Notes under the pieces: generated by a model
What the model saw: the letters and a program-made list of their open reading frames with translations, nothing else
The model's database searches: none
What the model was told of the DNA's origin: nothing
Made by a program: the position numbers and the translations under genes
In this document: positions 21,525 to 61,265 of the stretch, in pieces
How the letters are laid out: the number at the start of each line of letters is the position of its first letter
Numbering within the stretch: the stretch's first letter is position 1
Assembly (NCBI RefSeq): GCF_000313755.1
Contig: NZ_AMZB01000102.1
Coordinates: 1 to 64,000 of the forward strand
Direction of reading: 5' to 3'
Origin: Pseudomonas nitroreducens TX1
GTDB taxonomy: Bacteria; Pseudomonadota; Gammaproteobacteria; Pseudomonadales; Pseudomonadaceae
Length of the DNA stretch: 64,000 nucleotides

Positions 21525-22865
21525 ATGTCCGCGTTCCGACTCTCATTGCTCGGTGCCTGCGTCAGCGCATCGATCGCCGGCATTCCGTTCCAACTGGCGC
21601 ACGCCGCCGTGGTTTCCGACCAATCCGAAGCCACCGGCTTCCTCGAAGGCAGCAGCGCTTCGCTGCTGATGCGCAACTACTACTACAACAGCGACCGCAA
21701 GTCCGGCGACCGGGACCGCAAGGACTGGACCCAGGGCTTCACGCTGAACTACAGCTCCGGCTTCACCCAGGGCACCGTCGGTTTCGGTGTCGAGGCGTTC
21801 GGCAATTGGGGCATCCGCCTCGACGGCGGCGCCGGCACTTCCGGCACGGGCAATCTGCCGGTGCGTGACGATGGCTCGCCGGAAAGCGAGTACGGCCGCG
21901 CTGGCGGCGCCGTGAAGCTGCGGGTATCGAAGACCGAGCTGCGCTGGGGCGACCTGCAGCCCACCGCGCCGGTATTCGCCGCCGGCGGCACCCGCCTGTT
22001 TCCGCAGACCGCCACCGGGTTCAACGTGCTCAGCAGCGAGATCGACGGGCTGGACCTGGACGGTGGCCACTTCACCGGCGGCAACGGCCCTGTGACCACC
22101 AACGGCGACCACGGCATCTGGGCGTCCTATGCCAACGTCGAGGCCAGCAGCATTGACTATGTCGGCGGCAAGTACGCGGTCAACGACACGCTGAATTTCT
22201 CGCTCTACGCCTCCAAGCTGGAGGACGTGTGGCGCCAGTACTACGGCAACGCCAACTACACCCTGCCGCTGGCGGACGACCAGTCGCTGAACTTCGACTT
22301 CAATCTCTACCGCACCAACGACGACGGTAGCGCCAAGGCGGGCGAGATCAGCAACACCACCTGGTCCGCCGCCGCCGCGTACAGCTTCCTCGCCGCGCAC
22401 ACCCTGACCCTGGCCTACCAGAAGGTCCACGGCGACACGCCGTTCGACTACGTCGCCTTCGGCGTCAACGGCCCCGGCGACACCGCCGATTCGATCTTCC
22501 TCGCCAACTCCATCCAGTACTCGGACTTCAACGGCCCGGAAGAAAAGTCCTGGCAACTGCGCTATGACCTGGCGATGGCCACCTACGGCATCCCCGGCCT
22601 GAGCTTCATGGCCCGCTACGTCAACGGCCACGGCATCGACGGCACGAAAATGGCGGCCGACAGCCCGTATCGCGACTATGGCTACGGCGAGGACGGCAAG
22701 CACCACGAGACCAACCTGGAAGCCAGGTACGTGGTGCAATCCGGGCCGGCGAAGGACCTTTCGTTCCGTCTGCGCGAGGCGATCCACCGGGGCAACGCCG
22801 ACCAGGTGGAAGGCGATGTCAACGAGTTCCGCCTGATCGTCGACTATCCGCTGTCGATCCTGTAA
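21525..22865 (+). CDS. OprD-family outer-membrane porin
   Basis: 446 residues. A signal peptide (MSAFRLSLLGACVSASIAG, cleavage near AHA at residue 27) is followed by an OprD-type barrel: SASLLMRNYYYNSDR, RKDWTQGF, GDTPFDYV, LANSIQYSDFNGPEEKSWQLRYD, LEARYVVQSGPAKDLSFRLR and the closing RLIVDYPLSIL. It is similar in architecture to the porin at 104-1369 but clearly not a recent duplicate. No catabolic gene is coupled to it; its long AT-richer leader suggests separate regulation. The substrate is unknown. Confidence 0.92.
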   Translation: MSAFRLSLLGACVSASIAGIPFQLAHAAVVSDQSEATGFLEGSSASLLMRNYYYNSDRKSGDRDRKDWTQGFTLNYSSGFTQGTVGFGVEAFGNWGIRLDGGAGTSGTGNLPVRDDGSPESEYGRAGGAVKLRVSKTELRWGDLQPTAPVFAAGGTRLFPQTATGFNVLSSEIDGLDLDGGHFTGGNGPVTTNGDHGIWASYANVEASSIDYVGGKYAVNDTLNFSLYASKLEDVWRQYYGNANYTLPLADDQSLNFDFNLYRTNDDGSAKAGEISNTTWSAAAAYSFLAAHTLTLAYQKVHGDTPFDYVAFGVNGPGDTADSIFLANSIQYSDFNGPEEKSWQLRYDLAMATYGIPGLSFMARYVNGHGIDGTKMAADSPYRDYGYGEDGKHHETNLEARYVVQSGPAKDLSFRLREAIHRGNADQVEGDVNEFRLIVDYPLSIL

Positions 22866-22901
22866 CGCCAGTGCGCCCCTTGAGGACACCGCGGAACATC
22901 C

Positions 22902-22937
22902 GTAGGACGCATAACGCGCCAGCGTTATCCGCCCTAC
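22902..22937. repeat. Short copy of the GTAGGGCGCATAAC repeat
   Basis: GTAGGACGCATAACGC pairs imperfectly with GCGTTATCCGCCCTAC. It lies 36 bases after the porin stop and could end its transcript. Confidence 0.75.
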
Positions 22938-23026
22938 GAGTGCGGCCCACTGCAAGGCGGTGGCGCTGAAGTGAGCGGGCGGGGCGCTACAATCGGCGCT
23001 CCGTTCCCGTCCCGCGAGAAGAGTCG

Positions 23027-23680
23027 ATGTCCGAAGAAGAGCGCCGCACGCAACTGATCGATGGTCCGGTGGGCAAACTGCAATTGCTGATCGACCGGCC
23101 GGGTATGCCGCCGCTGGGCATCGCGCTGATCAGCCATCCGCAGCCGCTGCTCGGCGGCAGCCCGAAACACCGCGTGCCGCTGGTCCTGTCGCGCAGGCTC
23201 TGTGCTGCTGGCTGGTTGACCGTGCGGCCGAGTTTCCGTGGCGTGGACGGCAGCGAAGGCGAGTACGCCGAAGGTATCGGCGAGGCACAGGACATGCTCG
23301 CCGTGATCGCGCACCTGCGCAACGAGTACCCCGAGCTGCCGCTGGCGCTGGTGGGCTTTTCCTTCGGTGCCTACGTGTTCGCCCGCGTGGCCAGCGAGCT
23401 GTCCCCGCCTGCGGCCGCCATCGCGCTGATGGGCTTGCCGGTGGGCACCGTTCCCGGTGGGCGAGACTACGACGCGCAGGAGTTGCCGGCCGATTGCCTG
23501 CTGCTGCATGGCGAGGCGGACGAGATGGCGCCCCTGGCCAACCTGCTGGACTGGGCGCGCCCGGCCCAGCGCGAGGTGTGGCTCTACGCCGGCGCCGACC
23601 ACTTCTTCAAGGGTTGTCTGGAGCGCGCCGTCGAACGCGTACTGGAGCACCTGTCGCGCGCGATCAGCCGAGTCCTCTGA
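23027..23680 (+). CDS. Alpha/beta hydrolase
   Basis: 217 residues. Nucleophile elbow GFSFGAYV gives Ser, the acid is the Asp in LLHGEADEMAPL and the His is in GADHFFKG, in the correct order for a compact alpha/beta hydrolase related to YheT/CocE-type small serine hydrolases. ISHPQPLLGGSPKHRVPLVLSRRL is a conserved feature of this bacterial group, whose substrates are unknown. It converges on, and overlaps by 17 bases, the DUF971 gene at the end of the organosulfur gene set. Confidence 0.85.
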   Translation: MSEEERRTQLIDGPVGKLQLLIDRPGMPPLGIALISHPQPLLGGSPKHRVPLVLSRRLCAAGWLTVRPSFRGVDGSEGEYAEGIGEAQDMLAVIAHLRNEYPELPLALVGFSFGAYVFARVASELSPPAAAIALMGLPVGTVPGGRDYDAQELPADCLLLHGEADEMAPLANLLDWARPAQREVWLYAGADHFFKGCLERAVERVLEHLSRAISRVL

Positions 23681-23942
23681 GATACGCCCAGGGGTATATA
23701 CCCCGGTCGTGACCGTCGTCGAACACCAGCTGCACGCCGTAGCCTTGCAGGTTCAGTGCCTGCAGGGCGACCTCGGCCTTCACCAGGTCGATGCGCCCCT
23801 GCAGGCGGCCCGCCCGGCATTGCGAGCAGGGGCAGGCGCCGCGCAGTCGGGCGAAGGTTAGGCATTGTTCGATGCCGTCGTCCCAGCGGATGCGCAGCTC
23901 GCCGACGGCGCTGGAGCGGTGCAGGCCGACCGGCGTGTTCAT
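23664..23942 (-). CDS. DUF971 (GBBH-like N-terminal domain) protein
   Basis: 92 residues matching the DUF971 domain: ELRIRWDDGIEQCLTFARLRGACPCSQCRAG and GYGVQLVFDDGHDRGIYPWAYLR. The Cys cluster (Cys37, Cys39, Cys42 plus Cys27) resembles a metal site. The domain is known from gamma-butyrobetaine hydroxylase and as an extra domain of some Mrp/ApbC iron-sulfur carriers. It overlaps the HEAT-repeat gene by 4 bases and is last in the ABC-transporter operon, so a role in metal or Fe-S handling for the ferredoxin/flavoprotein pair is a reasonable guess (inference). Confidence 0.85.
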   Translation of the reverse strand: MNTPVGLHRSSAVGELRIRWDDGIEQCLTFARLRGACPCSQCRAGRLQGRIDLVKAEVALQALNLQGYGVQLVFDDGHDRGIYPWAYLRGLG

Positions 23943-24910
23943 GCCGACTGCTCCAGTTGGGCCAGGGCGATGCGCACGGCCTTGCGGACCTCCGGATCGC
24001 CGTCGTGTTCGGCGTTGCGCAGCGCGTCGAGGGCATCCCTGCTGCCCAGTTCGCCCAGGGCCAGCGCGGCCTCCTTGCGCAGGTTGCTGATGCCGTGGCC
24101 GAGCACGACCTTCAGGCCTTCCAGCGCCGGCAGATAGCGCAGCCTGCCCAGCGAACGGGCGGCGCGCAGGCGCACCTGCCAGAAGTCATCTTCCAGGGCA
24201 CGCACCAGCGCATCGCCGGCTTCGGGTTGAGCCAGTTTGCCGAGGGTACCGGCGGCTTCCTCGCGCACCTGCCAGGCCGGGTCGGCCAGCGCCGCCTGCA
24301 GGGCCGGCAGCACGCTGGCATCGATGGCCAGGCCGAGGGCGCCGGCCGCCGCGCGGCGGACTTCGGCGTCCGGGTCGTCGCGGGTCAGGCGGGCCAGGTG
24401 CGGCAGCGCGTCGGTGCGCTTGAGCCAGCCGAGAATGCCCACGGCTTCACGGCGCACACCGGCGTCGCTGTCGTCCAGCGCATTCAGGGCGGGTTCGGCG
24501 GCATCTTCCAGACGCAGCTCGCGCAGGGCACGCAAGGCGCTGCGGCGCACGAAGATGTCGGCATGGTTCGCCCACGGCAGCAGGCGCACGCCGGCCTCGG
24601 CGGTCTTCAGCTCGCTAAGGCTCTGGGCGGCGGCTTCGCGCACGCCTTCGTCGCTGTCGGCGAGGGCCTGGCAGAGGGCGTCCACCACCATGGGTTCTTC
24701 CCAGGCTTCCAGCAGGCGCGCAGCCTCGGCGCGGACGCTGGCGGCGGCGTCATGGTTCAGCGTATGGGCGAGCCAGGGCAGGCCATCGGGATCTTCCAGG
24801 TCGGCCAGTTCGATCAGGGCGATGCGGCGCACGCTGGCGTCGGCATCGCGCAGGCGCGGTTGCAGGTCGAGGATATCGGGGTTGTCGGTGCTCAGGTCGA
24901 AGGCAGTCAT
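23939..24910 (-). CDS. HEAT-repeat protein (PBS-lyase-like repeats)
   Basis: 323 residues made almost entirely of about ten 31-residue helical repeats with the pattern D-x-x-x-V-R-x-x-A-x-x-L-G-x-L (for example DPDAEVRRAAAGALGLA, DPAWQVREEAAGTLGKLA, DDFWQVRLRAARSLGRL). There is no signal peptide, so it is cytosolic. HEAT solenoids bind proteins or cofactors; the E/F-type phycobilin lyases are one related case. ATGA overlaps on both sides join it to the ABC ATPase and to DUF971. It probably serves as a scaffold or maturation factor for the redox pair encoded upstream (inference). Confidence 0.88.
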   Translation of the reverse strand: MTAFDLSTDNPDILDLQPRLRDADASVRRIALIELADLEDPDGLPWLAHTLNHDAAASVRAEAARLLEAWEEPMVVDALCQALADSDEGVREAAAQSLSELKTAEAGVRLLPWANHADIFVRRSALRALRELRLEDAAEPALNALDDSDAGVRREAVGILGWLKRTDALPHLARLTRDDPDAEVRRAAAGALGLAIDASVLPALQAALADPAWQVREEAAGTLGKLAQPEAGDALVRALEDDFWQVRLRAARSLGRLRYLPALEGLKVVLGHGISNLRKEAALALGELGSRDALDALRNAEHDGDPEVRKAVRIALAQLEQSA

Positions 24911-25755
24911 ATGGCGAATCGCGGTATCCGTTGGGGAGTGGGCAGGCCCAGGGGTGTCAGGCGTGGCAACTGGCGGCCGTCTTCGTGGCGCAGCAGTTCC
25001 AGGCAGTGACGCTTGAGCCGGGAGAATTCGGGCGTGGTCAGCAGGTCGGCATGACGCGGGCGCGGGAAGTCGAGGCGGATGTCCTCGAGGATGCGGCCGG
25101 GGCGCGGGCTCATCACCAGGATGCGGTCGGCGAGGAACAGCGCCTCGTCAATGTCGTGGGTGATGAACAGCACGCTGGTACGCAGGCGCGTCCAGATGTC
25201 CAGCAGCAGTTCCTGCATCATCATCCGCGTCTGCGCGTCGAGGGCGCCGAAGGGTTCGTCCATCAGCAACAGGCGCGGCTGGTTGATCAGCACGCGGGCG
25301 ATTTCCACGCGTTGCTGCATGCCGCCGGAAAGCTGCGATGGCCAGCGATTGGCAAAGCCTTCCAGGCCGACCAGCTGGAGCATTTCGTCCGCTTGCCTAT
25401 GCCGCTCGGCGCGGGGTACTCCACGCATTTTCAGGCCGAAGGCGACGTTGTCGCGCACCCGTCGCCAGGGCAGCAGGGTGTGGTGCTGGAACACCATGCC
25501 GCGTTCGGGCGAGGGGCCGGCGACGGCGCGGCCGTCCACTTCCAGCTGGCCGGCACTGGGCGCCAGGTGCCCGGCCAGTGCGCCCAGCAGGGTGGACTTG
25601 CCGCAGCCGGAAGGGCCGAGCACGCAGACGAATTGGCCCGGCTCCATGGCAAAGCTCAGGAACTGCACGGCCTCGAAGGCGTCGCGACCGTTGCCCAGGT
25701 GGATCGACAGGCCGTCGACGCGCACGCGCCCTGGGGCGCTGGCAGGCAGGGTCAT
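24907..25755 (-). CDS. ABC transporter ATPase, nitrate/sulfonate/taurine (SsuB/TauB) type
   Basis: 282 residues. Walker A GPSGCGKST (about 47-55), Q-loop FQHHTLLPW, signature LSGGMQQRVEIAR, Walker B RLLLMDEPFGALD and switch His in FITHDIDEALFLADR are all intact. This subfamily energises import of sulfonates, sulfate esters or related compounds. It starts by a 4-base ATGA overlap with the permease gene and ends by one with the HEAT gene. Confidence 0.95.
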   Translation of the reverse strand: MTLPASAPGRVRVDGLSIHLGNGRDAFEAVQFLSFAMEPGQFVCVLGPSGCGKSTLLGALAGHLAPSAGQLEVDGRAVAGPSPERGMVFQHHTLLPWRRVRDNVAFGLKMRGVPRAERHRQADEMLQLVGLEGFANRWPSQLSGGMQQRVEIARVLINQPRLLLMDEPFGALDAQTRMMMQELLLDIWTRLRTSVLFITHDIDEALFLADRILVMSPRPGRILEDIRLDFPRPRHADLLTTPEFSRLKRHCLELLRHEDGRQLPRLTPLGLPTPQRIPRFAI

Positions 25756-26540
25756 GGCTTGCCTCCGGCCTGGCGCTGCCAGGGTGTGGCCAGGGCGCCG
25801 AGCTGGCGCACCAGCAGGCTGCTGGCCATGCCGAGCACGCCGATCAGCAGCATGCCGACGACGATGTCGGGGTAGTTCTGCAAGGTATAGGACTCCCAGG
25901 TGTAGTAGCCGATGCCCCATTGCCCGGAGATCATCTCGGCGGTCACCAGGCAGAACCACGAGGTGCCCATGCCGATGGCCAGGCCCGTGACGATGCTCGG
26001 CGCGGCGCTCGGCAGCACCACCTCGCGCAGCAGCGCCAGGCGACCGGCGCCGAGGCTGCGGGCGGAGGCGAGCAGGCGTGGGTCGACCGCCTCCACGCCG
26101 TGGATGGTGTTGAGCAGGATGGGAAACAGCGCGCCGGTGAAGGTGATGAAGATCATCGACAGCTCGGAGCTGGGGAACATCAGGATCGCCAGGGGGATCC
26201 ACGCCACCGCCGGGATCGGCCGCAGCACTTCCAGCGGCGGCAGCAGGCTGTCGCGGGCCCAGCGGCCACGGCCGATGACCAGCCCCAGGAGGATGCCGGC
26301 GACGGCGGCCAGCAGGTAACCGGCGAGCACCCGCAGCAGGCTGCTGCCCAGGTGGCGGCCGAGCTTGCTCGATTGCGCCAGGCTCCAGGCGGCATCGAGC
26401 ACGTCGCGTGGGCCGGGTACGTTGGCGAAGGTGACCAGCCCGAGGTTCACGTGCCCCGCGCTGAGCACCTGCCAGAGCGCGAGGCAGGCCAATAGCGAGG
26501 CCAGGCGCAGGCTCCAGCGGGTGAAGGTGGTGCTGTTCAT
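25752..26540 (-). CDS. ABC transporter permease, SsuC/TauC type
   Basis: 262 residues with about six membrane helices and the EAA loop near residue 160-180 (EAVDPRLLASARSLGAGRLALLREVVLPSAAPSIVTG). Two adjacent ATG codons exist; 26540 is chosen because GGAG is then 7 bases upstream. It partners with the ATPase (4-base overlap) and the binding protein 59 bases upstream. The open frame extending further upstream is non-coding shadow. Confidence 0.93.
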   Translation of the reverse strand: MNSTTFTRWSLRLASLLACLALWQVLSAGHVNLGLVTFANVPGPRDVLDAAWSLAQSSKLGRHLGSSLLRVLAGYLLAAVAGILLGLVIGRGRWARDSLLPPLEVLRPIPAVAWIPLAILMFPSSELSMIFITFTGALFPILLNTIHGVEAVDPRLLASARSLGAGRLALLREVVLPSAAPSIVTGLAIGMGTSWFCLVTAEMISGQWGIGYYTWESYTLQNYPDIVVGMLLIGVLGMASSLLVRQLGALATPWQRQAGGKP

Positions 26541-26599
26541 CATCGTTCTCCGTCGAGTCCCGGCGCACGGGCGCCGGGTTTTTACCCGAGTGGCTGACC

Positions 26600-28006
26600 T
26601 CAGCGGCTGGCCACGGCCTGCTGGCTGGCGCCGGCAAAGTCGGCCACCTCGCCGCCGTGCTGGCGGGCGAAGGCGTCGGCCTGCTCGCGCAGCAGGAAGG
26701 CATCCAGCGCGCCGTCCTTGCCGCGCACGAACCACGCCTGCCCGGCGAGCAGCTTGATGCCGCTGTCGCTGGCCTGGGCATACACCGCGCGGATGTCCTT
26801 GCCCTGTTGCTTGAGTTCGGCCAACTGGCCCAGCGCCTCTTTGGCGGTTGCGTAGCTGCGCACCTTCGGCTCGCCACGCACCCAGATCTGCGCGACCTTG
26901 CGGGTATCGCTGATCGGTTTGCCGGTCAGCGCGTCGTTGCCCAGCAGCGGCTGCTGCGCGTAATTCTTCAACGCAACGTCGTAGTCGGCGCCGGACGCCT
27001 TGAACGCCGCACGGATATAGCGGTCGTCAACGAACTGCTCGACGTTCAGCCCGCGGTCGGCCTTCTTCAGCAGCTTCAGGGTGTCGATGGCGGTGGCCAC
27101 GGCCTGGCGGTATTCCGGCTTCCAGGTCAGGTCGCGGGTCTGCAGGCCGAGCGGGCCGTGGAACAGGTAGTTCACCTCGGCGGGGATGCCGGCGACCTTC
27201 TCGATCAGCTCGCTGTATTTCTCCGGGTCTTTCGCCAGCAGCTGGTTGGCCTCGTAGGTGGCGCGCAGGTAGGCCTCGACGATTTCCGGATACTTCTGCG
27301 CGTAGTCGGCCTCCACCAGCGCCCCGTGGAAGGTCGGCGCCTTGGCCTGGGAGCCGTCATAGATCTTGCGGGCGATGCCACGGCTTTCGAACAACTCGGC
27401 GAAAGGCACGAAATCGGCGTGGGCGGCGATCTTGTTGGCCTGCAGGGCGGAGCCGGCGACCTCCGGCGGCTGCGCGATGATGGTGACGTCCTTCTCCGGG
27501 TCCCAGCCCTGGGCAGCGATGGCGCGCAGCAGCAGGCCGTGGGCAGTAGAGGCGAAGGGCACGGAGATGGTCTGGCCCTTGAGTTCGGCCAGCGACTGCA
27601 CCGTGGACGCGGCGGGGACGACGATACCGTTGCCGCTGCCCTCGATGCTGCCCGAGAGCACGCTGATGAACAGGCTGCGCTTGCCGGCGGCCTCGTGGGC
27701 GACGCCGTTGAGCGAGCCGGGGAAGTCGGCCATGGCGCCGAAGTCGAGCTTGCCGGCGAGCATCTCGTTGGTCAGCGGCGCGCCGCTGGTGAAGTTCTTC
27801 CATTGCACGTCGTACTGCGCGTCCTTGTACTGGCCGTCGTGGGGCAGGTACTTGTCGAGCAGGCCGAGTTCGCGGATCAACAGGCCGCCGGCGGCGCAGT
27901 TGATGGTGGTGTCCTGGGTGCCGATGGCGACGCGGATGGTCTCTGCCTGGGCGGTGATGCTGGCGATGGCCAGCGCGAGGCCGGCCAGGGTGGTGCGCAA
28001 GGTCAT
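26600..28006 (-). CDS. Periplasmic substrate-binding protein with NosL-like C-terminal domain
   Basis: 468 residues, about 110-130 longer than ordinary SsuA/TauA proteins. There is a signal peptide (cleavage at TAQA, about residue 21). Residues 22-340 are a NMT1/SsuA-like type II binding fold (IRVAIGTQDTTINCAAGG, GAMADFPGSL). Residues about 370-458 resemble NosL: AQIWVRGE, a variable segment, AVYAQASD, AGQAWFVRG, then DAFLLREQADAFARQHGGEVADF. NosL is a copper-delivery lipoprotein for nitrous oxide reductase, but its metal-binding Cys/Met motif is not visible here. It is the first gene of the transporter part of the operon, downstream of the ferredoxin gene. The ligand is unknown; organosulfur is inferred from context. 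Confidence 0.88.
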   Translation of the reverse strand: MTLRTTLAGLALAIASITAQAETIRVAIGTQDTTINCAAGGLLIRELGLLDKYLPHDGQYKDAQYDVQWKNFTSGAPLTNEMLAGKLDFGAMADFPGSLNGVAHEAAGKRSLFISVLSGSIEGSGNGIVVPAASTVQSLAELKGQTISVPFASTAHGLLLRAIAAQGWDPEKDVTIIAQPPEVAGSALQANKIAAHADFVPFAELFESRGIARKIYDGSQAKAPTFHGALVEADYAQKYPEIVEAYLRATYEANQLLAKDPEKYSELIEKVAGIPAEVNYLFHGPLGLQTRDLTWKPEYRQAVATAIDTLKLLKKADRGLNVEQFVDDRYIRAAFKASGADYDVALKNYAQQPLLGNDALTGKPISDTRKVAQIWVRGEPKVRSYATAKEALGQLAELKQQGKDIRAVYAQASDSGIKLLAGQAWFVRGKDGALDAFLLREQADAFARQHGGEVADFAGASQQAVASR

Positions 28007-28122
28007 GGGTGTTCCCCTCGAATCATCAGTGTTGGAATCGTCTCCGCCGCAGGCCTTGCGGTGGGAAACGAGGGGCGGTGCATCAGGCGTCCGGTCGTTG
28101 GCCGGTAGCGTTTCTTGTTCAG

Positions 28123-28157
28123 GTGATGGGTATCGCTTCGCTCCACGCCATCCTACG
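28123..28157. repeat. GTGATGGGTATCGC repeat, copy 1
   Basis: GTGATGGGTATCGCTTCGCTCCACGCCATCC recurs with few changes at 50105-50139. It overlaps no gene and is a third intergenic repeat type in this window. Confidence 0.65.
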
Positions 28158-28164
28158 AAGCACC

Positions 28165-28240
28165 GTAGGGCGAATAACCTGGAACAGGTTATCCGTCGGT
28201 ACCTCGGTGGCGGATAACGCTGGCGCGTTATGCGCCCTAC
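28165..28240. repeat. GTAGGGCGAATAACC-family palindromic repeat
   Basis: Ends GTAGGGCG and CGCCCTAC are complementary, with inner GGTTATCC-type and GCGGATAACGC blocks. It sits between the ferredoxin and binding-protein genes of an otherwise compact operon. Confidence 0.8.
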
Positions 28241-28261
28241 GGAGCTAATGCGGTTGCCGGA

Positions 28262-28507
28262 TCAACGCAGGAGATAGGGAATCTCCACGCGCACCGCGCC
28301 GGTCGGGCAGTCCTTCTCGCAGGGCATGCAGTACCAGCATTCGTCGAAGGCCATGTAGGCCTTCTGGGTGGCGGGGTTGATCGCCAGCAGGTCCATCGGG
28401 CAGACCTCGACGCAGACGGTGCAGCCCTTGTCGGCGATGCACTTGTCCTCGTCCACGGTCACCGGGGCGCTGGAGCGGAAGAAGATTTCCTGGGGTCGGT
28501 AGGCCAT
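28262..28507 (-). CDS. AprB-like 2x[4Fe-4S] ferredoxin
   Basis: 81 residues with eight Cys in two cluster motifs: Cys23, 29, 32 and 36 (C-x5-C-x2-C-x3-CP) and Cys57, 60, 63 and 67 (C-x2-C-x2-C-x3-CP). The unusual first spacing and the FDECWYCMPCEKDCP segment are characteristic of the N-terminal half of the adenylylsulfate reductase beta subunit (AprB). It lacks the AprB C-terminal tail, so it is a minimal form. It lies just after the AprA-like flavoprotein gene and is almost certainly its electron-transfer partner. Confidence 0.93.
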   Translation of the reverse strand: MAYRPQEIFFRSSAPVTVDEDKCIADKGCTVCVEVCPMDLLAINPATQKAYMAFDECWYCMPCEKDCPTGAVRVEIPYLLR

Positions 28508-28592
28508 TGCACGCGGTCCTCATGGTGTTGCTTGCCGGCCGTCGTGGCGGCGGGCTGGTTGTTCAGGTCGAGGGTTCGGCGCGGTGGCCCGA

Positions 28593-28782
28593 AACCCTCT
28601 CCCCAGCCCTCTCCCTGAGGGGAGAGGGGGATTGATCGTGCCGGCGGATAGCGATGAGCCCGCGGGACGAATCTTTTTGTTCGGTGTTGCGGGCATTGTT
28701 GTGTTCGCCGGCTGAATCCGTGGTTGCCGCTCGCGCCGTACGGCTCCCTCTACCGCTTGCGGGAGAGGGCGGGGGAGAGGGG
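28593..28782. repeat. CCCTCTCCC-family inverted repeats between flavoprotein and ferredoxin genes
   Basis: Two copies (28593-28631 and about 28743-28782) of a CCCTCTCCCTGA / GGGAGAGGG-type element lie in the 297-bp gap between the two genes. Similar elements occur at 32536-32689 and 61216-61265. Confidence 0.75.
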
Positions 28783-28804
28783 CTCTGCGGCCAGCCGAAA
28801 CCCC

Positions 28805-30556
28805 TCAGGCCGCCTCGCTCTTCACCCGCAACCGCTCGTAGGCCTGCTGTTCATCCTCATCCAGGGCGATCACATAGGGCTCGATGGGCTTCTTGAAACT
28901 GGTCATCGCGCCGTCCTCGCCTTTCTTCAGGTGCGCATGGCAGAACCACTCGGCGTCATTGCGCAACGGGTAGTCCACGCGGTGGTGGTACAGGCCCCAG
29001 CGGCTCTCGGTGCGGAACAGCGAGGCGCGGGCGGCCATTTCGGCGCAGTCGCGGATCACGCTGACTTCCATGGCGCGCATCAGCTCGTGGGGGTTGTTGG
29101 CCTTCAGCTGGTCGAGGTCGCGGGCGATCTCGGCGAAGCGCTGCAGGCCGATCTCCATCTTCCTGGTCACCTTGGGCGGCTGCAGGTAGTCGTTGACCAT
29201 CCGCCGCAGCTTGTACTCGACCTGCGCCGGCGGCAGGCCGTGCTCGCGCTTGAGCGGGGCGAAGACGCGTTCGCGCTCGCGCTCGACCTGGGCGGGGTCG
29301 ACCTCGCTGAACTCTCGCCCGGCCGCGTACTGCGCGGCGTTGGCCCCGGCGAACCAGCCGTAGGTGAAGGCGCCGAGCATGTAGTTGTGCGGCACCGCGG
29401 CCATGTCGCCGGCCGAGTACAGGCCCTTCACGCTGGTCTCGGCCTTCTCGTTGACCCACACGCCGGAGGCGGAATGGCCGGAGCAGAAGCCGATCTCGGA
29501 GATGTGCATTTCCACCATCTGCTGGCGGTAGTCGGTGCCGCGCCCTGCGTGGAACTGTCCACGGCTGGGGCGTTCGTTGCTGTGGAGGATGTCCTCGATG
29601 GTCTGGATGGTTTCCTCGGCCAGGTGGTCCAGCTTGAGGAATACCGGGCCGTTGCCGCCTTCGAGCTCCTGGTGGAACTCCCACATCATCTGGCCGCTCC
29701 AGTAGTCGCACTCGATGAAGCGCTCGCCCTTGCTGTTGGCGGTGTAGCCGCCCAGCGGGCCGGTGACGTAGGCGCAGGCCGGGCCGTTGTAGTCCTTGAT
29801 CAACGGGTTGATCTGGAAGCACTCCAGGTTCGAAAGCTCCGCCCCCGCGTGGTAGGCCATGGCGTAGCCGTCACCGGCGTTGGTGGGGTTCTCGTAGGTG
29901 CCCATCAGGTAGCCGGAGGATGGCAGGCCCAGGCGGCCGGCGGCACCGCAGGCGAGTACCACGGCCTTGGCGCGGATCACCTGGAACTGCGCGGTGCGGC
30001 AGTCGAAGCCGAGCAGGCCGTTGACCGCGCCGTCCGCGTCGGTGAGCAGACGGGTGGCCACCAGGCGGTTGGTGATCTCGATGCGAGCGCGCTTGAGCTG
30101 GCGGTACAGCACCTTCTTGATGTCGTGCCCCTCGGGCATCGGCAGCACGTAGGCGCCCATGTGGTGGACCTTCTTCACCGCGTAGTCGCCGACTTCGTCC
30201 TTCTCGAACTTCACGCCCCAGCGGTCCAGCTGCTGCAGGGTCTCGAAGCTATGGGTGGCGTAGGCGTAAACCGCCGCCTGGTTGACGATGCCGTCGTTGG
30301 CGACGGTGATTTCCTTGGTGTACTGCTCGGGCGTGGCGTGGCCGGGGATGATGGCGTTGTTCAGGCCATCCATGCCCATGCTGATGGCGCCGCTGCGCTT
30401 CACATTGGCCTTGTCCACCAGCAGTACGCGCAGCTCGCGGTTGGCTTCCTTGGCCTTGATCGCGGCCATGGGGCCGGCGGTGCCGCCGCCGATCACCACG
30501 ATGTCGTAGGCGAGTTGCTTGTCCTCGGGAACCTGGGAGAGGTCGAACTGGCTCAT
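28805..30556 (-). CDS. AprA-like FAD flavoprotein (fumarate reductase / APS reductase alpha family)
   Basis: 583 residues. FAD-binding IVVIGGGTAGPMAA lies at about 20-33, an RSGAISMGMDGLNNA segment parallels the AprA RSGA motif, and GLYSAGDMA closes the FAD site. SQMMWEFHQELEGG and GLECFQINPLIKDYN-like segments match the AprA branch rather than fumarate reductases. The C-terminal helical domain (about 445-575) is present. The start (MSQFDLSQVPED) overlaps the GntR stop by 4 bases. With the AprB-like ferredoxin it should form a heterodimeric oxidoreductase acting on a sulfur or sulfonate intermediate. True APS reductase activity is unlikely, as no sat, qmo or dsr genes are near (inference). 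Confidence 0.88.
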   Translation of the reverse strand: MSQFDLSQVPEDKQLAYDIVVIGGGTAGPMAAIKAKEANRELRVLLVDKANVKRSGAISMGMDGLNNAIIPGHATPEQYTKEITVANDGIVNQAAVYAYATHSFETLQQLDRWGVKFEKDEVGDYAVKKVHHMGAYVLPMPEGHDIKKVLYRQLKRARIEITNRLVATRLLTDADGAVNGLLGFDCRTAQFQVIRAKAVVLACGAAGRLGLPSSGYLMGTYENPTNAGDGYAMAYHAGAELSNLECFQINPLIKDYNGPACAYVTGPLGGYTANSKGERFIECDYWSGQMMWEFHQELEGGNGPVFLKLDHLAEETIQTIEDILHSNERPSRGQFHAGRGTDYRQQMVEMHISEIGFCSGHSASGVWVNEKAETSVKGLYSAGDMAAVPHNYMLGAFTYGWFAGANAAQYAAGREFSEVDPAQVERERERVFAPLKREHGLPPAQVEYKLRRMVNDYLQPPKVTRKMEIGLQRFAEIARDLDQLKANNPHELMRAMEVSVIRDCAEMAARASLFRTESRWGLYHHRVDYPLRNDAEWFCHAHLKKGEDGAMTSFKKPIEPYVIALDEDEQQAYERLRVKSEAA

Positions 30557-31302
30557 TGATGCTGTCCCTTGTGACGGTCGATGCGCAGGCGGTACTGGAA
30601 GGCATCGCCGCGGTAGTAGAGGTGTTCGTAGTCCAGCGGGGTGCCGTCGGCGGTGTGGGTCAGGCGCTCGATGCGCATCACCGGCGAGCCTTCCTCCACC
30701 TCCAGCGCGCTGGCCAGCTCGGCGTCGGCGAGGATGGCGTCGATGGCGAGATCGGCGTGGCCCAGGGGCAGGGCGCAATCGTTTTCCAGGATCAGGAAGA
30801 TGTCGCGGCTGACCAGGTCGGCCTTCTCCAGGCGCTTGCCGACGTGCTCGGGCAGCCAGGTGATTTCCAGCGACACCAGCTCGCGATTGACCAGGCGGGC
30901 GCGCTTGATCTGCACCACGTTTTCGCCCTCGGCAACTTGCAGCCGTGCGGCAACCTGGGCGTCGGCCGGCACGGTCTTGAAGCTGCGCAGGCGGTTGATC
31001 ACCTCATAGCCGCGCTGGCTCATGGACTCGCCCAGGCCCTGCAGGGTGCTGACGTTCTGGAAGGCCTTGGGCTTGGCGACGAAGGTGCCCTTGCCATGGA
31101 TCTTGAAGATCAGCCCTTCCTTCTGCAGGTCGCCCAGCGCCTGGCGCACGGTGATGCGGCTGACGTCGAAGGCCTTGCCCAATTCAGCTTCGGAGGGCAT
31201 GCGGCTGAGCGGCGGATAGCTGCCGTCGAGGATGCGCGTGCGCAGGATTTCCTTGAGCTGGCTGTACAGGGGAACGGGGGAAAGCGGGAGTAGTTCGGCC
31301 AT
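30553..31302 (-). CDS. GntR-family (HutC/UTRA) regulator of the AprBA-like operon
   Basis: 249 residues: a GntR winged helix (about 10-75, LYSQLKEILRTRILDGSYPPLSRMPSEAELGKAFDVSRITVRQALGDLQKEGLI) and a UTRA effector domain (about 95-240) ending in GTPLDYEHLYYRGDAFQYRLRIDR. It is the first gene of the operon, ATGA-overlapped with the flavoprotein gene. A perfect dyad immediately upstream of its start suggests autoregulation that also controls the whole set. The effector is unknown. Confidence 0.92.
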   Translation of the reverse strand: MAELLPLSPVPLYSQLKEILRTRILDGSYPPLSRMPSEAELGKAFDVSRITVRQALGDLQKEGLIFKIHGKGTFVAKPKAFQNVSTLQGLGESMSQRGYEVINRLRSFKTVPADAQVAARLQVAEGENVVQIKRARLVNRELVSLEITWLPEHVGKRLEKADLVSRDIFLILENDCALPLGHADLAIDAILADAELASALEVEEGSPVMRIERLTHTADGTPLDYEHLYYRGDAFQYRLRIDRHKGQHQ

Positions 31303-31305
31303 AGT

Positions 31306-31321
31306 TCATAACTTGTTATGA
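31306..31321 (-). promoter_or_regulatory. Candidate GntR operator
   Basis: TCATAAC-TT-GTTATGA: 7-bp perfect arms with a 2-base centre, lying 4-19 bases upstream of the gntR ATG and just inside the predicted transcript start. Short, close-spaced dyads like this are typical GntR-family sites. Confidence 0.6.
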
Positions 31322-31333
31322 CGAGTTGCCGAA

Positions 31334-31363
31334 ACTATAAAAGGAATAGCTGATTCAGGACAA
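31334..31363 (-). promoter_or_regulatory. Sigma-70-like promoter of the GntR / AprBA-like operon
   Basis: On the minus strand TTGTCC (-35) and TATAGT (-10) are separated by 18 bases. The predicted start falls around 31327, so the dyad at 31306-31321 would block RNA polymerase leaving the promoter. Confidence 0.5.
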
Positions 31364-31411
31364 GAAACGATTTCGCATAAGCATAGAAAGCGCGGTCACG
31401 GGCTGTTTTTC

Positions 31412-31486
31412 GTAGGGGCGAGCGGCTCGCCAACGGATTACCGGCTGCTCCAGCGCCAGGCTGTTCGCGAGCAAGCTCGCTCCTAC
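31412..31486. repeat. REP-like palindromic repeat, diverged left arm
   Basis: Left arm GTAGGGGCGAGCGGCTCGCCAAC, right arm GTTCGCGAGCAAGCTCGCTCCTAC. Confidence 0.75.
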
Positions 31487-31533
31487 AAGATAAAAAAAGC
31501 CCTGGAGCAGACATCCGCCCTCTGCGGCTCTTC

Positions 31534-31611
31534 GTAGGAGCGAGCTTGCTCGCGAGCCCGGGCTGGCACCGTGAGCGGCCGGAAGTCATCGCGGGCGGAG
31601 TCCGCTCCTAC
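31534..31611. repeat. Hybrid REP-like repeat
   Basis: The left arm is the GTAGGAGCGAGCTTGC type and the right arm the GCGGAGTCCGCTCCTAC type, so it mixes the two repeat variants seen elsewhere in the window. Confidence 0.75.
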
Positions 31612-31618
31612 ATGAGCA

Positions 31619-32506
31619 TCAGAACGGCCGGCTGCCCGACAGGCTGATGCGCTTCAGACGACGCTTCTCGCTCGCCGGGAAGGCATTGCGGCCATGCAGC
31701 ACCGCCTGGTTGTCCCACCAGACGATGTCGCCCACCGACCACTTGTGGCTGTAGATCAGCTCCGGCTTCTGCAGGTGTTCGCGCAGCTTCTCCACCAGCG
31801 CCGCGCCCTGTTGCGGATCGGCGCCGGGGATTTCAACCTCGGTGTGCACGGAGAGGAACAGCACGCGCTTGCCGTTCTCCGGATGGGTGCGCACCAGCGG
31901 ATGCTCGGTGCCCTGGATGGGCTCGATGTCCGGGGTGCGGTAGCGCACGAAGGTGCCGTTGTAGCCGCCGCTCTTCAGGCGGATGAACGGGTTGTAGTTG
32001 ATCAGCCGGAGCGGATCGATCTCCGCTCGGGTCGCCTCGTCCAGTGTCTCGTAGGCGCGGGCCAGGTTGGTGAACTGGGTTTCGCCGCCGGTTTTGGGTA
32101 CCTCCAGCGCATACAGGAAGGAGCCGGAAGAGGGCACCGGCGTCCATTGGTGGTCAACATGGGCCGGCAGGGCGAAGTTGCCCAGTTCGCCGTCCTCGGT
32201 GTTGGCCACCTTGACGATATCCGGGGCCTTGCCATCGGCGCCGGAGGACAGCACCGGGATGTCCGCCGGCGGCTGGAACACTGCGCCGAACAGGGTGGCG
32301 AAGCGCAGGTATTGCTGATCGTCGAGCTGCTGGTCCTTGAAGATCAGGATGTGGTGCTCGCGGTGGGCCTGCTTGATGGCCAGGATCTGCTCTGGCGTCA
32401 GCGGCTCGCGGGCGTCCAGGCCGCGTACTTCGGCGCCCAGCGGGGCGTCGAGGGGGACGATGGCGAAGGGTTCGGGGGTGGATTGCTGGAGGGCGGATTG
32501 GGTCAT
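31619..32506 (-). CDS. TauD/TfdA-family Fe(II)/2-oxoglutarate dioxygenase
   Basis: 295 residues. Iron ligands His116-x-Asp118 (PAHVDHQW) and His271 (AVLHGRNAF), with the 2-oxoglutarate-binding Arg near 286 (RRLKRISLSG). The family oxidises taurine, other sulfonates, sulfate esters or 2,4-D-type ethers, releasing sulfite or sulfate in the sulfur cases. It differs clearly from the AtsK-type gene 200 bases upstream, so it probably handles a different substrate. The gap between them holds a repeat pair. It may be part of the same transcript as atsK and the TonB receptor. Confidence 0.9.
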   Translation of the reverse strand: MTQSALQQSTPEPFAIVPLDAPLGAEVRGLDAREPLTPEQILAIKQAHREHHILIFKDQQLDDQQYLRFATLFGAVFQPPADIPVLSSGADGKAPDIVKVANTEDGELGNFALPAHVDHQWTPVPSSGSFLYALEVPKTGGETQFTNLARAYETLDEATRAEIDPLRLINYNPFIRLKSGGYNGTFVRYRTPDIEPIQGTEHPLVRTHPENGKRVLFLSVHTEVEIPGADPQQGAALVEKLREHLQKPELIYSHKWSVGDIVWWDNQAVLHGRNAFPASEKRRLKRISLSGSRPF

Positions 32507-32535
32507 CTTGCAGTGCTCCGTTCAGGCATGGGCGG

Positions 32536-32689
32536 CCTCTCCCTAACCCTCTCCCTGAAGGGAGAGGGGACTGGATCGGTGCCAGGCGAAACCACGAGCC
32601 AGTCCTGCGCCGAAGTAGCAGGACCGCACGGGAGATACGCGTCAATCGGATACTCCCTCTCCCTTCAGGGAGAGGGCTGGGGAGAGGGT
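32536..32689. repeat. Pair of CCCTCTCCC-type inverted elements
   Basis: CTCTCCCTAACCCTCTCCC with its hairpin GAAGGGAGAGGG (32536-32570) and an inverted partner (32654-32689) bracket about 83 bases of unrelated sequence between the two dioxygenase genes. Confidence 0.75.
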
Positions 32690-32706
32690 TCGTCGGCAGA
32701 AGACCT

Positions 32707-33612
32707 TCAAACCTTCTTGATCGTCCGGCTGCGCTGTCCGTCGACGCCCACCGGCACATCGCCTTCGAGGGTCACGCGGCGCACGATGCGCGGCTGGGTG
32801 CCGTAGTCGTCCACGGCGTAGTGCTGGGTCGCGCGGTTGTCCCAGATGGCCACATCGCCCGGCTGCCAGCGCCAGCGCACGGTGTTCTCCAGCCGCGTGA
32901 CGTGGCCCTGCAGCACGCCGAACAGGTGCGCCGAGTCATGCTGCGAGAGGCCCTTGAGGCGCTTGACGAAATGCCCCAGCAGCAGGGTCTTCTCGCCGCT
33001 GACCGGGTGCACGCGCACCACCGGGTGCTCGGTCTCGTAGACGGTGGAGGTGAAGATCTTGCGGTATTCCTCCAGGCGCGCCGGGTCGACATTCGGTCGC
33101 ACGCTGGCGTAGTCGTATTCGTTGCTGTGCACCGCCCAGAGAGAGTCGGCCAGCACCTTCAGTTCCGGCGTCAGGTCGTCGTAGGCCGTGGCGGTGTTGG
33201 CCCATACCGTGTCGCCGCCAGACTCCGGGGCCACCACGTTGCGCAGGATCGAAGCCTTGGGGTAGGCCTCGACGAAGGTCACGTCGGTGTGCCAGGAGTT
33301 GGCGCGGCGGCCCTGGGCGCCGTCGAGCTCCAGCAGGTAGTGGGTACCTTGCTGCACCGGTACGGTGGGGTGCGCCACCGGGTTTCCGAGCAGCTTGGCG
33401 AAGGCCTCCTGGCCCTGATCGTCGAGCTGCGTCTGGCCGCGGAAGAAGATCACCTTGTGCTTCACCAGCGCGGCCTGGATGGCGTCGACGGTGGCGGCGT
33501 CCAGCCCGCCGGAAAGCTTCACGCCGCGAATCTCGGCGCCGATGCGGCCGGCGACCGGATGGATGTCGAGGCTGACTGCGTCCTGCTTGATAGCGTGTGC
33601 TGCGTTGCTCAT
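32707..33612 (-). CDS. atsK: Alkylsulfatase AtsK, Fe(II)/2-oxoglutarate-dependent sulfate ester dioxygenase
   Basis: 301 residues, the same length as P. putida S-313 AtsK and near-identical in pattern over the whole chain by memory. Residues line up exactly with the known enzyme: iron ligands His108, Asp110 and His264, with Arg275 and Arg279 for 2-oxoglutarate and substrate. AtsK oxidises medium-chain alkyl sulfates to the aldehyde plus sulfate, using oxygen and 2-oxoglutarate, under sulfate starvation. It lies 55 bases downstream of a TonB receptor that probably brings the ester through the outer membrane. Confidence 0.95.
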
Positions 33613-33667
33613 CTCATCGTCCTCTTGCTATGGCAATAGAGCCGCGCCTGGGCGCGGCGGATGGGGA

Positions 33668-36034: not shown

Positions 36035-36344
36035 GCTGGGTCCTTGTCTGTCCGCGCTTATCGCGGGCAAAAGGGGGCCGCGCCACGCAGCAGTGGCGAA
36101 CGACGTTTTTCCTGGAAGTGGGGTGCGGCTTTGGCTGTCAGCGACAGCGGGACAGGCACATTCGCGAAGAAAGGAGGTGCAAGGCTGGCATCGGGCGACT
36201 CCTGGTCTGGGCTATATTCTTAGTTCATAAAAGAATAGATGTTTGTTTTATTCTTCATTGACGGAATAAGAGCTTGCATTTAAACCAGCGCATAGGAAAG
36301 CGGCAAATGCCTTTGCCCACTATTTTCAATGCCGGAAATGCATC
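36035..36344. other. Divergent control region, TonB receptor / LysR
   Basis: 310 bp. The stretch 36210-36275 is strikingly AT-rich and contains interlocking dyads (listed separately). The remainder shows nothing clear. Confidence 0.7.
36216..36269. promoter_or_regulatory. Tandem AT-rich dyads between the TonB receptor and lysR (candidate LysR or CysB site)
   Basis: ATTCTT-N9-AAGAAT (36216-36236) and TTATTC-N10-GAATAA (36248-36269); the AAGAAT and next ATTCTT also pair. The region is about 75% AT in a GC-rich genome. LysR-family proteins typically bind repeated T-N11-A-type dyads in divergent promoters such as this one. Confidence 0.5.
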
Positions 36345-37265
36345 ATGGATCTGCGCCAACTCCGCTACTTCATCGCCCTCAACGAACACCGCAGCTTCGT
36401 GCGTGCCGCCGATGCCATGGGCATCACCCAGCCGGCGTTCAGCCGCAGCATCCAGGGCCTGGAGCAGGAGCTGGGCTGCCGGCTGGTGGACCGCGGCAGC
36501 AAGGACCTGCGGCCCACGCCAGAGGGACAGGTCGTGCTGCAGCACGCGCTGAGCCTGGTGCAGGGGGCCAACAACCTGAGCCACGCGGTGGCCCGGCTGA
36601 ACAAGCTGGACTCGGGTGAGCTGCGCTTCGGCAGTGGGCCGGCGCCGGCGCAGAAGCTGGTGTCCGACGCGGTGTCGCGTTTCGTCCAGCGCTACCCGCG
36701 CATCCACATCCAGTTCGGCGTCGACAATTGGGAGCGCCTCGCGCGCAGCCTGAGTCGCGAGGAGATCGAATTCTTCATCGCCGATATCCGCCATTTCGAA
36801 GCCGACCCGAACTTCCAGACCCGCGCACTGAAGCCGCGCAGCGGGCTGTTCTTCTGCCGTGCGGGGCACCCGCTGCTGGCCAAGGAGAGCCTGTCCACCA
36901 ACGACATTTTCGCCTACCCGCTGGCCGCCACGCTGATTCCGCCCAGCGCGCGAAAGATGCTCGCCAACCTCAGCGGCAAGATCGACATCAGCACCAACGT
37001 GCAGTGCGAGGACATGGCCTCGCTGGTGCGTATCGTCGGCCAGACCGACGCTATCGGCATCGCGGTGGAAGAAGCGCTGAGCGAGCCGATGGTGCGCGGC
37101 GAACTGGTGCGCCTGCACTTTCGCAACCTGCCGCAGAACGTCGACATCCTCCAGGCCCGCTGCGGCATCGTCACCCGTAGCGGCGACCGCCTCTCGGCGG
37201 CGGCGCGGGCGATGATCGAGCTATTGGTGGACCTGGATGCGGGGGTGGAGAGCGCGGTGGCGTAA
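36345..37265 (+). CDS. LysR-family regulator of the sulfate-ester uptake genes
   Basis: 306 residues. The N-terminus MDLRQLRYFIALNEHRSFVRAADAMGITQPAFSRSIQGLEQELGCRLVDRG is a canonical LysR helix-turn-helix, followed by the effector domain. It is divergent from the TonB receptor-atsK unit, the usual geometry for a LysR activator of the adjacent genes. The signal may be sulfate limitation or the substrate; nothing in the sequence settles this. Confidence 0.92.
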   Translation: MDLRQLRYFIALNEHRSFVRAADAMGITQPAFSRSIQGLEQELGCRLVDRGSKDLRPTPEGQVVLQHALSLVQGANNLSHAVARLNKLDSGELRFGSGPAPAQKLVSDAVSRFVQRYPRIHIQFGVDNWERLARSLSREEIEFFIADIRHFEADPNFQTRALKPRSGLFFCRAGHPLLAKESLSTNDIFAYPLAATLIPPSARKMLANLSGKIDISTNVQCEDMASLVRIVGQTDAIGIAVEEALSEPMVRGELVRLHFRNLPQNVDILQARCGIVTRSGDRLSAAARAMIELLVDLDAGVESAVA

Positions 37266-61215: not shown

Positions 61216-61265
61216 GCCCCTCTCCCTAACCCTCTCCCTTCAGGGAGAGGGCGGGGGGAGAGGGG
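61216..61265. repeat. CCCTCTCCC-type inverted element between atsC and atsA
   Basis: CCCTCTCCCTAACCCTCTCCC and CAGGGAGAGGGCGGGGG pair as nested hairpins. It is the same family as the elements near 28600 and 32540. Confidence 0.8.

Follow-up and report, generated by a model that had tools for sequence, protein, structure and literature searches.

A conserved flavoprotein, ferredoxin, HEAT-repeat and DUF971 module in a probable organosulfur operon of Pseudomonas nitroreducens TX1

Four genes, encoding an AprA-like flavoprotein, a two-cluster ferredoxin, a HEAT-repeat protein and a DUF971 protein, form a real, conserved core module found in soil Pseudomonas, root-nodule bacteria and cyanobacteria. 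In the window (the whole stretch of 64,000 nucleotides analysed here), the module lies within an eight-gene operon on the minus strand, at 23664-31302. The operon is probably a self-contained system for an anionic organosulfur compound, most likely a sulfonate without a taurine-type amine. Its features are as follows.

31311..31326, no strand assigned: likely operator ACTCGTCATAACAAGT, directly upstream of the regulator start
30553..31302, minus: GntR/UTRA regulator, the operon's first gene (Pfam UTRA 4.8e-40, GntR 3.7e-20)
28805..30556, minus: flavoprotein, 583 aa, AprA/PAPS-reductase-like (NCBIfam NF006131, PRK08275)
28262..28507, minus: ferredoxin, 81 aa, eight Cys for two 4Fe-4S clusters, AprB CW motif
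26600..28006, minus: binding protein, TauA/SsuA-like N-terminal part and NosL-like C-terminal domain
25752..26543, minus: ABC permease, starting at MMNSTTF (BPD_transp_1 2.6e-24)
24907..25755, minus: ABC ATPase (ABC_tran 6.7e-34)
23939..24910, minus: HEAT-repeat protein (HEAT_2 3.8e-59)
23664..23942, minus: DUF971 (GBBH-like_N) protein with a CxCxxC motif (Pfam 1e-20)

All eight genes stand in the order given in a preliminary description, and Pfam searches of each gene returned the families claimed there: GntR plus UTRA; FAD_binding_2 plus Succ_DH_flav_C; 4Fe-4S dicluster; NMT1; BPD_transp_1; ABC_tran; HEAT_2; and GBBH-like_N, which is DUF971. The four gene overlaps that it named each measure 4 bp by coordinates: GntR/flavoprotein (end 30553, start 30556); permease/ATPase (end 25752, start 25755); ATPase/HEAT (end 24907, start 24910); and HEAT/DUF971 (end 23939, start 23942). 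The permease most likely starts at 26543, rather than at the GTG of the listed open reading frame (26735). An Rfam search of 22000-37000 gave no matches.

All 20 of the other sampled genomes with the flavoprotein gene have ferredoxin, HEAT and DUF971 genes near it (E 1e-4; DUF971 in 19 of the 20 loci at the stricter E 1e-5); 40 control segments of 20 kb, taken from two genomes, gave none (at least 80 bits). The core arrangement thus is non-random, and the proposed check on co-occurrence of the four genes came out positive. In five Pseudomonas loci that lack the ABC trio of this operon, the four core genes still stand together.

The flavoprotein is a member of NCBIfam NF006131 (PRK08275; 1140.7 bits, cut-off 587) and sits in a 32-row clade with support of 99/100. 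It represents a family of its own, with PAPS reductase and AprA as its closest relatives at 26-29% identity. Among solved chains, the closest is the PAPS reductase alpha chain 8a8o (258.6 bits), then AprA (195), then SdhA (121); PAPS reductase scores about twice, and AprA 1.6 times, as high as SdhA. Against the aprA model the flavoprotein scored 182.1 bits, below the cut-off of 641.75, and Pfam found no APS-reductase_C domain (PF12139) in it; a genome search for PF12139 likewise gave no match, the control genomes being equally silent. The AlphaFold model is poor (pLDDT 55.8) and affords no structural check.

Active-site columns were compared with six AprA rows, all with W and R; four of the six score above the aprA cut-off. 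Two rows from wrong-frame open reading frames (L024 and L029) and an SdhA/FrdA protein (L030) were left out. We take AprA R265 and W234 to be substrate contacts, and N74 and H398 (assuming that the aligned His is H398) to be active-site residues. The W234 and R265 columns are Y221 and L252 in every row of the flavoprotein family (14 rows, and 18 in a second alignment), whereas N66 and H361, equivalent to N74 and H398, are invariant in the 14 rows. The nucleotide-loop region also is unlike that of AprA. With two of these four AprA active-site residues replaced, identity as an APS/PAPS reductase was rejected, and the changed R265 and W234 columns mean that the AprA mechanism is not simply transferable.

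The closest characterised relative is the FAD/ferredoxin enzyme MtPAPSR of Methanothermococcus thermolithotrophicus (PDB 8a8o; PMC10322725), which occupies the same branch (28.6% identity) and shares the short two-cluster ferredoxin subunit. MtPAPSR keeps the AprA catalytic residues (PMC10322725), with W and R where this family has Y221 and L252; the family differs further in its altered nucleotide-loop region, and in its linkage to importer, HEAT and DUF971 genes. The MtPAPSR type is alpha2beta2, with a two-cluster ferredoxin and an electron-transfer Trp; the ferredoxin here has eight Cys and the CW motif, kept in 20 of 20 ferredoxin homologues. The preliminary description had called the pair AprBA-like. 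This stands insofar as the flavoprotein is AprA-like and the ferredoxin, which aligns with AprB including the CW motif, is a minimal AprB, but the closest solved enzyme is the Methanothermococcus PAPS reductase. Fold branch, N74/H398 equivalents and CW motif are shared with AprBA; the R265/W234 columns are changed, however, and an APS-reductase_C match, the AprB tail, and sat, qmo or dsr genes in the operon are missing. Sulfate respiration, already considered unlikely, left no sign in the cluster.

Could the flavoprotein instead work oxidatively? A succinate dehydrogenase-type enzyme might oxidise the carbon chain of the imported sulfonate, so that sulfite leaves and electrons pass out via the ferredoxin; we consider this rather unlikely. 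The superfamily, the Succ_DH_flav_C domain and the NCBI family name (fumarate reductase/succinate dehydrogenase flavoprotein) are common ground, and SdhA H354 aligns with H351. That residue, however, is N in three cyanobacterial rows, and PAPS reductase and AprA both outscore SdhA. We further take SdhA H242, R286 and R399 to be active-site residues, and H45 to be the covalent-FAD histidine. H242 aligns with N250; R286 and R399 fall within SdhA stretches without counterpart in this family; the H45 column holds G56; and the operon has no membrane-anchor genes. In addition, G266 aligns with SdhA R258. Succinate dehydrogenase identity was rejected on these missing residues. Since residues are replaced or missing in both comparisons, the flavoprotein is neither an APS/PAPS reductase nor a succinate dehydrogenase despite its database name, and the NCBI annotation in many genomes is misleading. 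In the available passages of PMC8305402, Bphy_5588 is called a succinate dehydrogenase flavoprotein subunit.

The HEAT and DUF971 proteins had been proposed as maturation or assembly factors. The HEAT protein aligns with NF010374, the fusion family, over positions 614-896 of the latter (81.1 bits), and flavoprotein-HEAT fusions occur in two actinomycetes: Tsukamurella (893 aa; 1568 bits, NF010374 cut-off 1196) and Nonomuraea (an open frame of 933 aa). Because it is fused to the flavoprotein there, the HEAT protein is better read, from sequence, as a probable enzyme subunit. For DUF971 the proposal holds: in four of four cyanobacterial loci, the next annotated gene after HEAT is Mrp/NBP35, which stands in the place of DUF971 and thereby suggests an Fe-S factor. 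The DUF971 protein, with its CxCxxC motif, resembles HCF101/Mrp-type Fe-S carriers, but is free-standing and tied to one enzyme. The genome has three DUF971-domain matches, this protein among them.

The importer points to the substrate. In both sequence and fold, TauA/SsuA are the nearest matches to the binding protein: its eight best fold matches all are TauA or SsuA chains, although it scores 109.8 bits against NCBIfam SsuA_fam, under the cut-off of 163.5. TauA E106 and D205 bind the amine (PMC6906117); the corresponding columns are N126 and H227 here, invariant in 16 of 16 rows. The binding protein, permease and ATPase are of the TauABC/SsuABC type, with TauA/SsuA the nearest structures, but differ in these ligands and in the extra NosL-like C-terminal domain. 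That domain, at most a putative copper site, falls below the Pfam cut-off and has a weak PDB match (E 0.0046). The Sao transporter was rejected on scores and cut-offs (SaoX 22.3/300, SaoP 134.7/295 and SaoA 241.9/360 bits).

Genomic context is in line with the imported organosulfur substrate suggested earlier, given the sulfonate-type binding protein and the sulfur genes beside the module elsewhere. Next to the operon itself, the TauD-family dioxygenase and TonB receptor noted in the preliminary description were recovered upstream: two TauD-family genes (31619-32506 and 32707-33612) and the receptor (33668-36070). The TauD pair was rejected as part of the module, with matches of at least 80 bits in 14 of 80 Pseudomonas-type loci and varied positions. 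Some lineages repeatedly carry genes for the sulfite-linked transporters YeiH and TauE and for an Fpr-like ferredoxin reductase next to the module, and also sulfonate genes. TauE belongs to a broad family, TauE/TSUP, and was found in none of the 20 genome loci. YeiH is encoded at 6 of the 20 genome loci and at 3 of the 18 plasmid loci, versus none of 40 control segments; the YeiH proteins score under the TIGR00698 cut-off. In Salmonella, YeiH drives sulfite resistance (PMC12880088). Fpr-like reductases occur at 9 of 20 genome loci versus 1 of 40 control segments, and at none of 18 plasmid loci; two that were scored reached 134.7 and 164.1 bits (cut-off 390), and the Methylobacterium cluster ends with a ferredoxin-NADP reductase and FdxA. 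YeiH, TauE and the Fpr-like reductase have no matches in the 80 Pseudomonas-type loci.

The YeiH and TauE neighbours, together with the AprA-like fold and Crp/Fnr-type regulators in alphaproteobacteria, also would fit an enzyme that handles sulfite itself, either one like AprBA but running oxidatively or one that detoxifies sulfite; such a role has been proposed for the AprBA of some heterotrophs. The replaced AprA residues and different nucleotide-loop region make this improbable, and an enzyme that did no more than detoxify sulfite would have no use for a dedicated sulfonate-type importer. A non-sulfur pathway, whose substrate might be of the nitrate, cyanate or aromatic-anion type and whose sulfur neighbours would be coincidental, appears equally improbable. 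The binding-protein fold also accommodates nitrate, bicarbonate or pyrimidines, the top permease model is a nitrate permease (146.2 bits, cut-off 209.05), and 10 of 23 annotated plasmid loci lack a clear sulfur neighbour; nevertheless, sulfur genes are near the other 13 by our own reading, versus one such locus in a 150 kb control, and the binding protein is TauA/SsuA-like. Last, an assimilatory APS/PAPS reductase, for which the closest solved structure and minimal ferredoxin subunit speak, is very improbable: the W and R of the Methanothermococcus enzyme are replaced in all family rows, the operon has no sulfurylase or APS kinase gene, and the genome already has two strong PAPS_reduct-family matches (CysH and CysD undistinguished).

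The explanation that we favour, with evenly balanced confidence, is that a sulfonate-type compound other than taurine is imported and then cleaved to sulfite in a ferredoxin-driven reaction, with HEAT as subunit and DUF971 or Mrp as Fe-S loader; we infer both the substrate and the direction of electron flow. The compound would enter through the ABC importer. Electrons would pass from NAD(P)H via an Fpr-type reductase and the ferredoxin to FAD, and reduced FAD would cleave the sulfo group of the substrate, as in APS/PAPS reduction, to release sulfite. Sulfite then would be assimilated, or any surplus removed by membrane proteins of the YeiH/TauE type. The HEAT protein may clamp ferredoxin to flavoprotein, in place of the missing AprB tail, while DUF971 or Mrp would load the 4Fe-4S clusters. 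More tentatively, and with the chances somewhat against it, the operon could encode an oxygen-independent, radical-free desulfonase in aerobes: a flavoenzyme related to AprA that, powered by NAD(P)H and ferredoxin, reductively frees sulfite from an imported organosulfonate with the help of a HEAT subunit and its own Fe-S loader.

If the favoured explanation is true, the conserved four-gene module would add a ferredoxin-driven means of drawing sulfur from organosulfur compounds, which would matter for how soils, nodules and fresh water are supplied with sulfur. Besides the oxygenases (SsuD, TauD) and the glycyl-radical lyases, a desulfonase would constitute a third route, shared among soil bacteria, nodule symbionts and cyanobacteria. 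This way of obtaining sulfur seems uncharacterised so far. The earlier failure to match the combination to a characterised pathway was repeated: among the matches listed in the literature searched, which left subscription journals mostly outside its coverage, no description of the gene set was found. It is absent from the available passages of PMC7661421, PMC8557817, PMC5748707, PMC8305402, PMC10708946, PMC2996968, PMC6865838 and PMC7522526. With its importer, enzyme, subunit, loader and single operator, the operon is small enough to be put to the test.

Control presumably lies with the GntR protein, which would respond to a pathway compound; this regulator was matched in 79 of 80 Pseudomonas-type loci. 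No wider GntR regulon was found in the source genome. The operator pattern ACTYGTYATRACRAGT is absent, at up to two mismatches among 96 loci, from Cupriavidus, Acidithiobacillus, the two actinomycetes and two further loci (L039 and L048). It occurs without mismatch at most 230 bases upstream of the regulator in 80 of the 96, and with up to two mismatches in 90. At that same tolerance the site is single in the source genome; the reversed pattern gave six.

The preliminary description had proposed an eight-gene minus-strand operon (23664-31302), and its open reading frames and protein families are as described: a GntR regulator, flavoprotein (FAD), ferredoxin (Fd), an ABC trio (binding protein, permease and ATPase), a HEAT protein, and DUF971. 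The four 4-bp gene overlaps are borne out by the ORF coordinates. In a profile search, 21 of 398 genomes sampled from the phylum had a match above the cut-off of flavoprotein family NF006131. Within the genus, 17 of 25 genomes did so, one of them with a partial match. Among the matches listed, scores drop from 1058 to 218 bits with a gap between, so NF006131 is a discrete family. The partial match (G411:C1:1515146-1516294, in a genus relative) covers only profile positions 7-389 of 577, and is possibly a decaying or cut copy.

All 20 other NF006131 genomes carry matches to ferredoxin, HEAT, and DUF971 inside 20 kb (E 1e-4; at the stricter E 1e-5, DUF971 is found at 19 of the 20 loci), and 18 of these loci have the ABC trio. 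No match to ferredoxin, HEAT, or DUF971 of 80 bits or more was found in 40 control segments, 20 from one Pseudomonas genome and 20 from a 7-Mb genome belonging to a different family. The module is real and conserved rather than a chance arrangement.

Pseudomonas-type loci were sampled as the best 80 of 514 from named genomes (79 Pseudomonas, and one MAG named Paucimonas). The order GntR-FAD-Fd-SBP-HEAT-DUF971, where SBP is the binding protein, is kept in 70 of these best 80. The remaining ten comprise four truncated at contig ends, one with no GntR match, and five with no dedicated binding protein. These last five still hold FAD, Fd, HEAT, and DUF971, and therefore this core is the enzyme unit, with the importer a usual but separable partner. 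In these five Pseudomonas loci (L067, L070, L071, L072, and L079) the ABC trio of the operon is missing; at four, a TauD gene shares about 80% identity with that of the window, and a binding protein of weak similarity is encoded 3 to 4 kb downstream from the core. Of the best 80 loci, the one most like the window comes from Pseudomonas nicosulfuronedens; it carries the operon as well as a TauD gene with 94% identity to the window's.

Beyond this set, the arrangement varies by lineage, with four main architectures. The gamma/beta architecture, which includes the window, is GntR-FAD-Fd-ABC-HEAT-(DUF971); DUF971 is absent from the annotation tables of the Cupriavidus and Aquabacterium loci. In alpha loci, ABC genes and a Crp/Fnr-type regulator accompany DUF971-FAD-Fd-HEAT; an Fpr-like reductase joins this architecture in nine of the 20 genome loci, and also occurs in Methylobacterium radiotolerans. 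In cyanobacteria the order is FAD-Fd-HEAT-Mrp/NBP35, with Mrp/NBP35 the next annotated gene after HEAT, followed by YeiH and TauE in three of four loci; at the Nostoc locus, additional genes separate FAD from Fd, and the stretch examined contains neither YeiH nor TauE. Actinomycetes (Tsukamurella and Nonomuraea) have GntR-Fd-ABC-FAD::HEAT, where :: marks a fusion; the Nonomuraea locus is unannotated, its order coming from sequence matches, and its open frame for the fusion is 933 aa. Acidithiobacillus has GntR-FAD-Fd-HEAT-FdxA, and Methylocystis FAD-Fd-HEAT without an annotated DUF971. That regulators differ around one core argues that the core is the unit. At one cyanobacterial locus the module adjoins a gene for a LysR-type regulator (L131:6649-8661) whose C-terminal part includes an NMT1-like binding domain. 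GNAT acetyltransferase and amidase genes adjoin it in Methylocystis (L136) and Nostoc (L132), perhaps processing an amide-linked substrate.

Among solved chains, the flavoprotein is closest to the alpha chain of MtPAPSR, the PAPS reductase of Methanothermococcus thermolithotrophicus (258.6 bits), followed by the APS reductase subunit AprA (195) and the succinate dehydrogenase flavoprotein SdhA (121). In a tree of 40 rows, 32 family rows form one clade (support 99/100) apart from MtPAPSR and six AprA rows, to which the family is 26-29% identical; stem branches are very long and the deeper branching order is unsure. Four of the AprA rows were scored against the aprA model, and all four pass its cut-off. 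AprA N74, W234, R265, and H398 are active-site residues. N74 is kept in the family alignment as N66, and the column of family H361 we take to be that of H398. W234 and R265, however, are replaced by Y221 and L252 in all 14 aligned family rows and in 18/18 plasmid rows. One study describes MtPAPSR as retaining the proposed catalytic residues of APS reductase (PMC10322725). Within region 129-141, K129, H131, and Y136-P141 are invariant in the family (alignment A1), whereas AprA and MtPAPSR differ at these residues; plasmid rows have H131 in 18/18, and R in place of H132 in six. SdhA differs too: H45, the site of covalent FAD attachment, aligns with G56, and H242 with N250, while R286 and R399 lie in stretches without counterpart. 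SdhA H354 corresponds to H351, but this is N in three cyanobacterial rows. Our reading of these alignments is that the flavoprotein would use the scaffold of AprA and MtPAPSR on another substrate.

The ferredoxin shares with AprB eight Cys and a CW motif (20/20 homologues), but lacks the C-terminal tail of AprB. This tail may be replaced by HEAT, which in actinomycetes is fused to the flavoprotein. In HCF101, DUF971 forms the C-terminal domain; it carries a CxCxxC motif, and its function is termed elusive in PMC7980591. The Cys motif is lost in one locus (L041) and incomplete in two (L031 and L048), and this speaks against the motif being strictly required.

What does the importer carry? The binding-protein profile matched TauA at 5.3e-23 and SsuA at 1.1e-17, 2.8e-16, and 1.1e-14; the last (3e4r) was deposited as a nitrate transport protein and is titled SsuA in the fold-match listing. 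Other nitrate and bicarbonate proteins trail far behind (5.6e-4 and weaker). Fold-match ranks 1-8 of the predicted model (pLDDT 84.6) are all TauA or SsuA chains. According to PMC6906117, TauA contacts its ligand through G61, and E106 and D205 hold the taurine amine. With an offset of 21, derived in this analysis, G61 is kept as invariant G75, whereas E106 and D205 are replaced by N126 and H227, both invariant; invariant Q31, outside the aligned stretch, may correspond to TauA Q30. Replacement of the amine ligands suggests that the imported compound is a sulfonate without a taurine-like amine. The C-terminal ~105 residues of the binding protein (26600-28006) form a NosL-like domain, present also in a Pseudanabaena homologue.

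Sulfur genes recur near the module. YeiH lies beside it in 6/20 genome loci and 3/18 plasmid loci, and in none of the best 80 of 514 Pseudomonas-type loci or the 40 control segments; five of the six genome loci share family f48 (L048 is f38), so these linkages are not independent events. TauE lies near the module in three cyanobacteria, Aquabacterium, and Rhizobium N324, a count that leaves out an Acinetobacter TSUP transporter about 7 kb away. Several loci have sulfonate, TauD, SsuD, LLM, sulfate, or mercaptopropionate genes. By our judgement, 13 of 23 annotated plasmid loci, many of them related, have sulfur-gene neighbours; 150 kb of control sequence from three of those plasmids held one sulfur locus (hpsN/hpsO). 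TauD matches occur in 14 of the best 80 of 514 Pseudomonas-type loci, versus 0/40 control segments. The module is conserved, apparently uncharacterised, and probably one that handles organosulfur compounds; we infer its electron direction and its substrate.

In 80 of 96 loci, an exact copy of the palindrome ACTYGTYATRACRAGT occurs in the 230 bases upstream of GntR; six loci lack it, counting three or more mismatches as absence. A scan allowing two mismatches found one site in the window's genome, an exact match at 31311-31326; the reversed control pattern yields six, so the absence of further sites is informative, and the weight of the single site lies in its exact match and position. A single site, beside GntR, points to GntR as a dedicated local regulator, with ACTYGTYATRACRAGT its predicted operator. 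Paired inverted repeats, presumably of REP/REPIN type, lie at 28595-28781 (in the 297-bp gap between flavoprotein and ferredoxin), at 31465-31555 (upstream of GntR), and at 32535-32688 (between TauD genes), and an extra copy of the motif is at 61218-61238.
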